Virus record (IMG/VR): IMGVR_UViG_3300030110_002737
Location: 15,374 to 43,592 of that record
Source of the DNA: a virus
Reading direction: 5' to 3' (one strand)
Length of the DNA: 28,219 nt
The notes under the pieces are model-generated. The model was given only the letters and a program-made list of their open reading frames with translations. It had not been told where the DNA came from and ran no database searches. This document shows, one piece after another, positions 18,656 to 27,848 of the stretch; within the stretch, counting starts at the first letter, position 1; every line of letters begins with the position of its first letter. Both the position numbers and the translations under genes were made by a program.

Positions 18656-18680
18656 AAAAAAAAGGGGGCAAAGCCCCCTC
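18656..18680 (-). terminator. Strong intrinsic terminator before the primase gene
   Basis: Read on the - strand: AGGGGGC-TTT-GCCCCCT followed by a T-run (eight A's at 18656-18663 on the + strand, one shared with the stem). The 7-bp GC stem with a three-base loop and U-tract is a textbook rho-independent terminator. It follows the SSB-like gene's stop (18684) and ends 11 nt before the primase ATG (18644), leaving no room for a promoter. Confidence 0.9.
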
Positions 18681-18683
18681 TTG

Positions 18684-21101: not shown

Positions 21102-21422
21102 TTATTTTTTATTAAATTTATTGTGTAATTCATTTATTCTTTCCAAAGTTGCTATTGCTTTTTCATAACTCATTCCCTCTGTTATTAAATTATCAATTTG
21201 CAGTTGTTTTATTTCTATCTGCAAATGATGTATAGCTTTTTCTATGTCCTCTATGTGTTTAGCAATATCAGACATACCTTCTTCTTTTTTCTTTCCGGCT
21301 CTCATTAAATAAGTGAGGGCAGTACCTATATTATATGTTGCTGAAAAGCCATACACTACTTCTGAAGCCTCGTATTTGTTTTTGCCTACATAATAATTAG
21401 GGGTTGATCTAATTGGTTTCAT
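21102..21422 (-). CDS. DUF3310-like (SaV) protein
   Basis: 106 aa matching the DUF3310/SaV-like pattern: PNYYVGKNKYEASEVVYGF, then NIGTALTYLMRAGKKKE and HIEDIEKAIHHLQIEI. This pattern (GxxE…N.G.A.KY..RAG.K…D..KA..yL) is widespread in phage replication regions and often linked to nucleotide metabolism, though its biochemical role is not well established. The C-terminus (70-106) is a helical extension. It overlaps the upstream 82-aa gene by 14 bases and ends one base before the DnaA-like start. Confidence 0.75.
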   Translation of the reverse strand: MKPIRSTPNYYVGKNKYEASEVVYGFSATYNIGTALTYLMRAGKKKEEGMSDIAKHIEDIEKAIHHLQIEIKQLQIDNLITEGMSYEKAIATLERINELHNKFNKK

Positions 21423-21657
21423 TTGATTTATTTTTTAATTGATATTTACTCATATCGTTTTTGATTAGTTTTCTTTCAAATATTTGATACTCATAATTGT
21501 CTTCAGGCTTAACAAATTTTTTTTTATACTCTATTAGTCCAGAGCATTTAAAATAATTTTCAAACTCTATTAAGTTTGTTTTATTTACAATATGATATTT
21601 GGTAATTTTTTTATTTTGTTCTGTTTCAAAAACAAAATTCTTTGCTAATTCTTTCAT
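21409..21657 (-). CDS. Hypothetical 82-aa protein, first gene after the structured leader
   Basis: MKELAKNFVFETEQNKKITK…, a basic protein with aromatic patches (LIEFENYFKCSGLIEYKKKF, YEYQIFERKLIK). No family is recognised. It is the first gene of the replication operon and sits directly below a roughly 150-nt leader rich in inverted repeats, with an AATTAAATTAAATTGA-ATG start region. Any leader-based control would act first on this gene and, by coupling, on DUF3310, DnaA-like, annealing and exonuclease genes. Confidence 0.6.
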   Translation of the reverse strand: MKELAKNFVFETEQNKKITKYHIVNKTNLIEFENYFKCSGLIEYKKKFVKPEDNYEYQIFERKLIKNDMSKYQLKNKSNETN

Positions 21658-21658
21658 T

Positions 21659-21809
21659 CAATTTAATTTAATTCTAAGGAAGTGGTTAATAGTATTAACT
21701 GTTATGGCAAAATTGCCTTTATAACCACCCCCCTAAATATAAAGGACAAACATTTAATATTAAGGTATCTTACACCAAAAAAATTATTGGGATTATTCCC
21801 GTCCTTTAT
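21659..21809 (-). promoter_or_regulatory. Structured leader/intergenic element with two nested stem-closed domains
   Basis: Read on the - strand, 21809-21801 (ATAAAGGAC) pairs perfectly with 21747-21739 (GTCCTTTAT). It encloses GGGA-ATAA-TCCC, a GGTGT-AAG-ATACC hairpin (one G-U) and the palindrome TTAATATTAA. Immediately below, 21732-21722 (GGGGGTGGTTA) pairs with 21689-21679 (TAACCACTTCC) over 11 bp with two G-U pairs, enclosing GGCA-ATTT-TGCC. A competing 15-bp palindrome (GTTAATA-C-TATTAAC) overlaps the second stem. After it comes AATTAAATTAAATTGA and the ATG at 21657. It could be a cis-acting RNA, an operator array or part of an origin. Confidence 0.45.
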
Positions 21810-21937
21810 TCTTTATAATTCTTTACTATAATTTTTTTTAGAATATCCTGATTTAATTTTTGTAGCCATTGTATATACTTTCTATCCGGCTTATCCTTCA
21901 ATTTTTCTTTTAAAATTAACTCATGGATTTCTTTCAT
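21806..21937 (-). CDS. 43-aa basic helical peptide
   Basis: MKEIHELILKEKLKDKPDRK…, 43 codons, basic and helical throughout. Its ATG overlaps the zinc-ribbon gene's stop as ATGA (21934-21937), the same junction used by other genes here, which supports translation. Its stop codon lies within the first stem of the structured leader, so ribosomes finishing this ORF would touch that stem; it could therefore act as a leader peptide. Function unknown. Confidence 0.5.
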   Translation of the reverse strand: MKEIHELILKEKLKDKPDRKYIQWLQKLNQDILKKIIVKNYKE

Positions 21938-22125
21938 AGCCCAAGTTTTTTATCCTCAGCCATAGCCTCAGCTCTCTCATCAAGTTTCCATTGTCTGTAT
22001 TCGTAGTCTTCTGTAGTTTCACAATAGTTTCCACAAGCTATACAGACAATAAAGTAGTCTCCATACTCATTCTCTATGTCTTCCCATTCATCTCCACAGC
22101 AAGTTGATACCATTTCTACTCCCAT
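21934..22125 (-). CDS. Small zinc-ribbon-like protein
   Basis: 63 aa with CCG at residues 9-11 and CIACGNYC at about 28-35: a CC…CxxCxxxC arrangement likely to bind one zinc ion. The rest is acidic (DEWEDIENEYGDY; EDYEYRQWKLDERAEAMAED). Small phage zinc ribbons of this kind often contact nucleic acid or transcription machinery, but nothing here specifies a target. The start overlaps the upstream 81-aa gene by ten bases; ATG 22113 (MVSTCC) is an alternative start. Confidence 0.6.
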   Translation of the reverse strand: MGVEMVSTCCGDEWEDIENEYGDYFIVCIACGNYCETTEDYEYRQWKLDERAEAMAEDKKLGL

Positions 22126-26895: not shown

Positions 26896-27456
26896 TTAAA
26901 ATAAAGAGAGTTGTAATTCCGGCTGACTCTCTGTTTTCTCTTGTTTGTTACCCATTTCAATTAATTCTTCTTTTGTCCAAACTTCATCAGGGCTTAACCA
27001 TTGGAATAATATTCCGGTTTCTCTACATTCCTGAATTTCTTTTCTTTTGGTTTCTAATCTTGCTTTTTTCCTTTCAATATATCCAGTTTCTACTTTTTCC
27101 CATGCGTTGTTCATATGTTCTTCTGTATAAATATCATCTTGTTCTGTATAATAAGATTCTTCTTCAAATACTTTGTCACATAAATTTACCTCTTCTTTAT
27201 TGTTTTCATAAACCATCTGTAAACGATACAAGCACCAATCGTTTTGTTTCCAGTATTTTTTTCCATACTGGATAGATTCGTTTTTATCTTCTGTTAGATA
27301 CTCAATTATATCTGTCTGACTCCTGAAGCTGTTTATATATCTATCATCTGTTTTACTCCTTTGCAAATGATGTTGGTATAGTTCAGGAATATCAGTTCTT
27401 AATAACCAGTTAAGATGATTTTCAGGGTCTAATTTTTTATATGGTTTTGTGTTCAC
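26896..27456 (-). CDS. Early protein with C-terminal sliding-clamp-binding motif QLSLF
   Basis: 186 aa, translated from GTG at 27456 (MNTKPYKKLDPENHLNW). The body is charged, helical and rich in Trp, Tyr and Glu (YGKKYWKQNDWCLYRLQMVY; EESYYTEQDDIYTEEHMNNA), with a Lys/Arg/Glu-rich helix (IERKKARLETKRKEIQECRE). The last residues, after a short flexible stretch, are QPELQLSLF. QLSLF is the canonical bacterial beta-clamp-binding pentapeptide (QL[S/D]LF), and an exposed C-terminal location is typical of true clamp ligands. The protein may therefore act at the host replication clamp, to recruit or to inhibit. The body matches no family I know. Confidence 0.65.
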   Translation of the reverse strand: MNTKPYKKLDPENHLNWLLRTDIPELYQHHLQRSKTDDRYINSFRSQTDIIEYLTEDKNESIQYGKKYWKQNDWCLYRLQMVYENNKEEVNLCDKVFEEESYYTEQDDIYTEEHMNNAWEKVETGYIERKKARLETKRKEIQECRETGILFQWLSPDEVWTKEELIEMGNKQEKTESQPELQLSLF

Positions 27457-27497
27457 TTGTTTGTGATTAATTTTGCGAGGATTAGTCCTCTACTACG

Positions 27498-27523
27498 AAA
27501 AGCCCAGTATTTTCATACTGAGC
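27498..27523 (-). terminator. Intrinsic terminator with GAAA tetraloop
   Basis: On the - strand: GCTCAGTAT-GAAA-ATACTGGGC (nine pairs including one T-G) followed by TTTT. The GNRA-type loop and short T-run fit an intrinsic terminator, 26 nt past the stop at 27549. A second small dyad, GAGGA-CTAA-TCCTC, lies just downstream near 27475-27490. Confidence 0.7.
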
Positions 27524-27548
27524 CAATCGCAGAACAAACAAAAATTTG

Positions 27549-27848
27549 TTAGCCGATACGAGGAACAAAAAATGGTTCTTCTTTGGCTATGTTTGTAAAA
27601 TCGTGTACCACATCAAAAACCGAATAATCGTTTTTAAGTACAAGTTCCACCCATTCCGGAGCAGTTGCAAAAACTATCTCGCATTGTTCCATTGGGTTAA
27701 TATTTTCATCTTTAAAGATGTTATTCATTGCTTGATAAGGCATTGTCAAGTAAAGTTTTAATATCGTTTCATCTTTCTGTGTTCTGTACAGAATAGAATT
27801 AATGTTGTCGTTGATATAGTTTAAAAAATGTTCTTCCCTGTTTTTCAT
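27549..27848 (-). CDS. Hypothetical 99-aa protein
   Basis: MKNREEHFLNYINDNINSIL…; N-terminal helix, then YRTQKDETILKLYLTMPYQA and an acidic, hydrophobic C-terminal half (CEIVFATAPEWVELVLKNDY). No family is recognised. It is flanked by a long palindrome upstream (27887-27908) and a terminator downstream, so it may be a single-gene unit. Confidence 0.55.
   Translation of the reverse strand: MKNREEHFLNYINDNINSILYRTQKDETILKLYLTMPYQAMNNIFKDENINPMEQCEIVFATAPEWVELVLKNDYSVFDVVHDFTNIAKEEPFFVPRIG

Follow-up and report, generated by a model that had tools for sequence, protein, structure and literature searches.

What is the function of the structured gap between two small genes of an uncultivated phage? 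The gap lies in the 28,219-nt stretch of phage DNA analysed here (the window), within a long run of minus-strand genes (Table 1). An earlier note, made from sequence alone, had described it as packed with nested complementarity and had proposed a structured leader ahead of a replication and recombination operon, with two mutually exclusive folds. The nested complementarity is real, and every piece that had been described was found in its place. It resolves into two neighbouring elements, which we call A and B, and the sections below ask what these elements are, where related phages keep them, and what they may do.

Gene setting of the gap

The gap is intercistronic and not obviously the start of a transcript, and a scan for the sigma-70 consensus, the only promoter type searched, revealed no promoter excess around it. 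The genes downstream follow in the order 82-aa, DUF3310-like, DnaA-C domain (Pfam PF08299), putative annealase, DUF3799/exonuclease VIII-like, SSB-like and VirE/primase-helicase-like, where the SSB-like protein and the annealase are named from gene context and the DUF3310-like protein has only weak PHROG 'nucleotide kinase' matches here. Annotated relatives of the VirE-like protein are found mostly in phages of Flavobacterium, Cellulophaga, Polaribacter, Maribacter and Bacteroides, which suggests that the host is likely a member of the Bacteroidota. The source phage itself is uncultivated and probably marine, the marine origin of many contigs having been deduced from their relatives.

Among relatives in IMG/VR, the best conserved DNA of the neighbourhood is the intergenic DNA together with the 43-aa ORF. 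A shorter conserved stretch occurs at the 3' end of the 82-aa ORF (21431-21467, minus strand), where 28-36 nt are kept at about 83-97% DNA identity while the flanks have diverged in many relatives. L004, L006, L014 and L086 have a small additional gene (some 270 bp; MINPTTYKLKKLIPGYK...) inserted directly behind B, between B and the 82-aa gene. Upstream, within a 63-aa ORF, the minus strand of 21920-22069 is predicted to form an unusually stable RNA (MFE -39.3, z -6.2, 20 shuffles).

Table 1. Features of the gap, its flanking genes and a second intergenic site
Feature	Position	Strand	Remarks
A/B gap		minus	between the 43-aa and 82-aa ORFs
43-aa ORF	21806-21937	minus	directly upstream of A; stop codon 21806-21808 inside P1 of A; kept in relatives
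82-aa ORF	21409-21657	minus	directly downstream of B; its relatives come after A/B in many site-1 arrangements
Element A	21739-21809	minus	three-way junction RNA: P1, P2, P3 and conserved 3' strand
A, P1 5' arm AUAAAGGAC	21801-21809	minus	carries the UAA stop of the 43-aa ORF
A, P2 hairpin GGGAAUAAUCCC	21789-21800	minus	covarying; missing from some distant relatives, e.g. L228 type
A, P3 hairpin GGUGUAAGAUACC	21764-21776	minus	conserved U-AAG-A loop
A, conserved strand UUAAUAUUAAAUGUUU	21748-21763	minus	between P3 and P1; from alignments of relatives
A, P1 3' arm GUCCUUUAU	21739-21747	minus	continues into UUUAUAUU; 6 T in 8 nt past the last G/C
Element B	21673-21737	minus	16-bp P1 (21722-21737 with 21673-21688), conserved internal loop, small hairpin
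B, conserved UAAA, then hairpin GGC-AAUUUU-GCC	21706-21721	minus	hairpin itself 21706-21717
B, internal-loop conserved strand GUUAAUACUAU	21689-21699	minus	conserved in relatives
Plain intrinsic terminator AAGAGGGGGCUUUGCCCCCUUUUUUUU	18656-18682	minus	between the SSB-like and VirE/primase genes

Two conserved RNA structures on the sense strand

The minus strand of 21658-21815 has a minimum free energy (MFE) of -43.0 kcal/mol, well below the -27.8 +- 3.6 kcal/mol of its dinucleotide-shuffled versions (n = 200; z -4.2); for the plus strand, z is -2.9. When the minus strand of the gene block at 13.7-28.2 kb is scored in 289 windows of 150 nt, the exact interval ranks second by z. In DNA as rich in AT as this, folding energy by itself is a weak argument: relatives reach z below -4 in numerous positions, and a sliding scan of folding energy across 56 of them was too noisy for locating further elements. 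In the MFE fold, the sense RNA forms two side-by-side domains, A and B.

The decisive evidence for the structure is covariation. The annealase and the DUF3310-like protein served to gather relatives from IMG/VR, whose homologous intergenic regions were compared. Because MAFFT misplaced the P1 arms of divergent members, the counts were made on Infernal alignments fitted to the structure. Such alignments favour the structure, but the P1 of B, counted independently and without gaps, gives an agreeing result. Both elements covary beyond shuffled and slid controls. For A, 95.9% of cells are paired in 25 distinct sequences and both partners vary in 16 of 18 pairs, compared with at most 56% of cells and at most 8 such pairs when the 3' partners are slid; in 50 distinct sequences, 95.4% of cells are paired and 239 carry double changes (65.5 after shuffling, at most 39 after sliding). 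For B, 99.0% of cells are paired in 25 distinct sequences, 12 of 16 pairs change on both sides, and there are 54 double-change cells against 13.1 for shuffled and at most 9 for slid partners, the counts for both elements being controlled by shuffles and slid partners and taking no account of phylogeny. In P1 of both elements, the sequence differs between phages and the pairing is kept, and the inner strands are constant.

The kinds of pair that are tolerated also reveal the strand. On the sense strand, G-U pairs occur often and A-C mismatches hardly at all: 58 versus 2 in the ungapped count of the P1 of B, and in the CM alignments 56 versus 0 for B and 34 versus 0 for A. Thus, the selected structure is an RNA made from the minus strand. 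The earlier note had read the G-U pairs in a stem joining 21679-21689 to 21722-21732 as favouring an RNA role. This stem is present, its G-U pairs exist on the minus strand only (the plus strand reads A-C), and the MFE fold extends it to the full P1 of B; the strand-specific G-U excess and the covariation of both stems bear the RNA reading out. A and B are therefore conserved structured RNAs on the minus (sense) strand.

Element A matches covariance model (CM) R1 at 97.3 bits and CM R3 at 86.6 bits, the latter as the sole match in the 43.6-kb record. The perfect 9-bp closing stem that had been described is confirmed as an inverted repeat; all nine of its pairs vary on both sides among relatives, in which P1 is often only 8-9 bp long. 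The junction between P2 and P3 reads roughly UAAYYUUA. Since AUAUUAAAUGUU served as an anchor or pattern for collecting A sequences, its invariance is partly by construction; L023 and L024, two members found by the model without the exact collecting string, vary at it.

Element B matches CM R2 at 21676-21738 (61.3 bits), and its P1 encloses a UAUAAA-hairpin and GUUAAUACUNUUA. The plan of the family is an uninterrupted P1 of 14-18 bp, (U/C)AUAAA, a small hairpin, GUUAAUACUNUU(A/G), and P1'. The small hairpin is GGC..GCC or, in L214, CUACACGAAGUAG, with a similar form in L228, and in distant variants the innermost P1 pair switches from U-A to C-G on both sides together. TTAATACT belonged to the collecting pattern for B, and its strict invariance is again partly by construction.

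A palindrome, GUUAAUA-C-UAUUAAC (21685-21691/21693-21699), had been proposed to compete with the second closing stem. It is present in the window, but it does not represent a selected alternative fold. The P1 pair at the contested position is kept in 25 of 25 sequences (as UA, UG, GU, AU or CG), whereas the palindrome pair is lost in several relatives. We reject the alternative fold, and with it the idea of two mutually exclusive structures, because the P1 pair persists where the palindrome pair breaks.

Placement at gene ends and terminator-like stems

When IMG/VR was scanned for the core patterns, the A core turned up in 87 stretches, the B core in 47, and a third core, C, in 8; CM models confirmed most of these. 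The genes that A follows include the 43-aa ORF and those for DNA polymerase (632-664 aa; L228, L265, L274), SSB-like (L220) and DUF3310-like (L211, L248) proteins. At convergent operon ends in L208, L209 and L252, the gene next to A runs the opposite way and no same-strand gene lies downstream; core C occupies the operon-end place in L274. Of 53 distinct A elements, 37 have an ORF stop between -12 and +16 nt of P1 (7% at random positions in the same loci), and six further ones have it at -17, inside the element; many of the 53 are related by descent, so that the position counts are not independent, and several unrelated upstream genes are represented. The overlap of a stop codon with the first stem, which the earlier note had pointed out, lies in the 5' arm and is a recurrent arrangement. 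B, when not directly behind A, lies 4-16 nt after a stop (L179, L248, L088, L093), and both elements always share the coding direction of the genes.

Given the varied upstream genes and the operon-end copies, A and B are better described as gene 3'-end elements. The term leader is only partly right, with copies after unrelated genes and at convergent ends. In records that carry them, close copies of A and of B are present once each, and L024 has an additional, diverged A-like element at a second site. The two stand in tandem in the window and about 18.6 kb apart in G052 and G064. In L017 and L018, a C-core element (GGACACAACGUCC...; 512-591 in L017) lies upstream of A, which places three elements in a row (C, A, B).

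P1 has a purine-rich 5' arm and a C/U-rich 3' arm. Purine polarity (purines on the 5' side) is 0.78-0.80 in P1 of A and B, versus 0.87 in the plain terminators of these phages; P2 is likewise polar (0.89), so the polarity of P1 is not unique, which weakens its value for a terminator reading. At least five T lie in the 8 nt past the last G/C of P1 in 33 of the 53 A elements and in 13 of the 39 B elements, against a background of 15%; about 60% of A copies pass this loose U-tract test, as do site-2 relatives. The tails in the window are imperfect (UUUAUAUU after A, UUAGAAUU after the P1 of B), and a strict terminator scan of the window found no minus-strand terminator at A/B.

A second site is informative here. 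Between the SSB-like and VirE genes, a plain terminator is found in the window, as it is in many relatives. In L002, L016, L023, L024, L039, L042, L088 and L093, its place is taken by a conserved core inside a terminator-type stem with T behind it; the core is A-like in L023, L039, L088, L002 and L024 and C in L016 and L093. Intrinsic terminators resemble A and B in lying just past stop codons, in having a 5' arm that is A-rich and then G-rich, a C-rich 3' arm and often U, and in alternating with them at one site in related phages. They differ in that the loop of A and B holds a conserved multi-helix core of about 45-60 nt, and in that many copies of A and B, including those of the window, have poor U-tracts. 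Separately, an A-type core is shortened in L079 (5074-5134) relative to L080 (1128-1214), with the terminator stem and T-run intact; this is either a natural deletion or an assembly error.

Possible functions of A and B

Based upon these features, A and B are most likely elaborate transcript-end or attenuation signals. RNA structure, strand, conservation, placement at ORF ends and a terminator-like P1 are the observed basis of this account. Stop-codon placement, U-rich tails, P1 polarity and the exchange with plain terminators support a terminator reading, against which stands the lack of a good U-tract in most B elements and in many mid-operon A copies. Terminators are normally reused many times, and the single close copy of A and of B per record argues against plain terminators. 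Moreover, strict conservation of a 45-60-nt core is more than a plain terminator requires, and the core must have some further role.

We tentatively favour, while judging it somewhat short of probable, the reading that the A and B families at gene ends are core-bearing, possibly conditional terminators or attenuators, and that the window holds a partial attenuator. The parts of this account that we infer are termination or pausing, regulation and the identity of any factor. P1 would be a terminator-type stem, variable yet always paired, whose loop is filled by the conserved multi-helix core. Once the ribosome leaves the upstream stop codon, the core could fold behind RNA polymerase and join the arms of P1, leading to termination or a strong pause. 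How often P1 closes might be set by recognition of the core, through a factor or ligand, or by the ribosome on the overlapping stop codon. At those operon ends that have good U-tracts, P1 would make the 3' end of the transcript; in the window, with its imperfect U-tracts, the tandem of A and B would partially attenuate transcription between the small early genes and the 82-aa, DUF3310, DnaA-like, annealase, exonuclease and SSB-like genes. A broader version holds that A, B and their kin are conditional terminators in which a ligand- or protein-binding core inside the terminator loop decides stem closure, with different cores (A, A-like, C, B) reused at gene ends across divergent, mostly uncultivated phages; as a generalisation this is possible, though on the unlikely side.

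Alternatively, A and B could be non-coding RNAs that act in trans: carried within early transcripts, they would be cut out or shielded by means of P1 and would bind a host or phage protein or another RNA. The low copy number just described is the main support for this, and a conserved core with a P1 free in sequence, the flexible spacing of the two elements and the absence of a fixed downstream gene are also compatible with it. However, the preference for stop codons, the U-rich tails and the exchange with plain terminators between the SSB-like and VirE genes point to action in cis, and we consider a trans-acting function unlikely.

A and B could also control the gene that follows, as a riboswitch or an autogenous protein-binding leader, for example for the 82-aa or replication proteins. 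For this speak the 82-aa-family gene that comes next in many site-1 arrangements, including those of relatives encoding DNA polymerase, and a multi-helix junction with conserved unpaired strands that looks aptamer-like. Three-way-junction riboswitch aptamers (purine and TPP classes) indeed share with A a closing P1, two hairpins and conserved unpaired junction strands. They differ in that A has no Rfam match at gathering score and no constant regulated gene, and in that the P1 of A is itself terminator-like. In contrast to the constant, metabolically coherent downstream gene of a riboswitch, the flanking genes of A and B vary, those downstream of other copies are unrelated, and L208, L209 and L252 have no following gene on the same strand. 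Downstream control is thus a doubtful explanation.

We assign a similarly low likelihood to an RNase III-type processing site or a 3'-end stabiliser that separates or protects mRNA segments. RNase III-type processing sites separate the early genes of T7, and the intercistronic positions, the place of A directly past stop codons and the uninterrupted P1 of B would suit such a role, but the sequence-conserved cores and the U-AAG-A loop are not required by RNase III, the P1 of A often has only 8-9 bp, and P1 has a strong strand polarity. Finally, a DNA element (replication origin, operator cluster or cruciform), which the earlier note had kept open, would suit the neighbouring replication genes and the many inverted repeats of the gap, but is hardly credible as the reason for conservation: the asymmetry between frequent sense-strand G-U and near-absent mirror A-C mismatches rules out an operator or cruciform as the cause of stem conservation, the elements are always on the sense strand and also stand at operon ends, and any DNA function could only be additional.

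Among phage nascent-RNA elements, the putRNA of HK022 is, by description, the nearest functional analogy. It is a structured RNA of about 70 nt in phage early transcripts, with two stem structures, that mediates processive antitermination, and one phage has two (PMC9378689). Similar size, two stem structures and paired occurrence are shared with A and B, as far as a comparison by description allows (PMC9378689). HK022 putRNA, however, lies near early promoters and acts kilobases downstream, whereas A also occurs at operon ends with nothing but a convergent gene beyond, its P1 running into U-rich tails; these copies misfit promoter-proximal antitermination of this kind. GOLLD/ROOL-type RNAs are likewise conserved non-coding RNAs of phages and prophages with uncertain function, but they are hundreds of nucleotides long (PMC12286853 and general knowledge), compared with about 65-80 nt for A and B, which lie at gene ends inside operons.

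The whole window and 19 locus sources with variants were searched with Rfam 15, and no family scored above the gathering threshold. This includes the ribozyme families, so that a self-cleaving ribozyme would have to be of a new class; permissive searches gave matches at chance level only (best E 0.58 for the window stretch, 0.5 for L033). In BLAST searches of cultured phages, neither the region nor the A and B cores had a real relative, the best short match being to an unannotated stretch of Vibrio phage VnaP, and two cultured relatives, Manatee Spring podovirus and Flavobacterium elemoF, lack A by CM R1. We found no description of the motifs in the literature, within a search whose coverage of subscription papers and preprints was thin.

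A and B are thus two RNA families absent from Rfam and conserved across many uncultivated phages, and they offer a clean test case for transcript-end formation or early-operon partitioning in such phages. Should the core control the stem around it, A and B would represent a compact form of regulation suited to transfer into reporter constructs. Predictions that can be tested directly follow from the covariance models, from the exchange with plain terminators at one site and from the overlap with stop codons.

A further structured RNA lies elsewhere in the window, at 27493-27532 on the minus strand, where the intergenic RNA is strongly folded (z -6.4 for 27450-27600). Its outer stem, CUGCGA/UCGUAG, surrounds a variable GC-rich hairpin. 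Similar forms occur in L018, L035, L041, L051, L232 and L254, and in L099 the outer stem is changed yet complementary (CCACCAA/UUGGUGG). This is probably a third conserved element.
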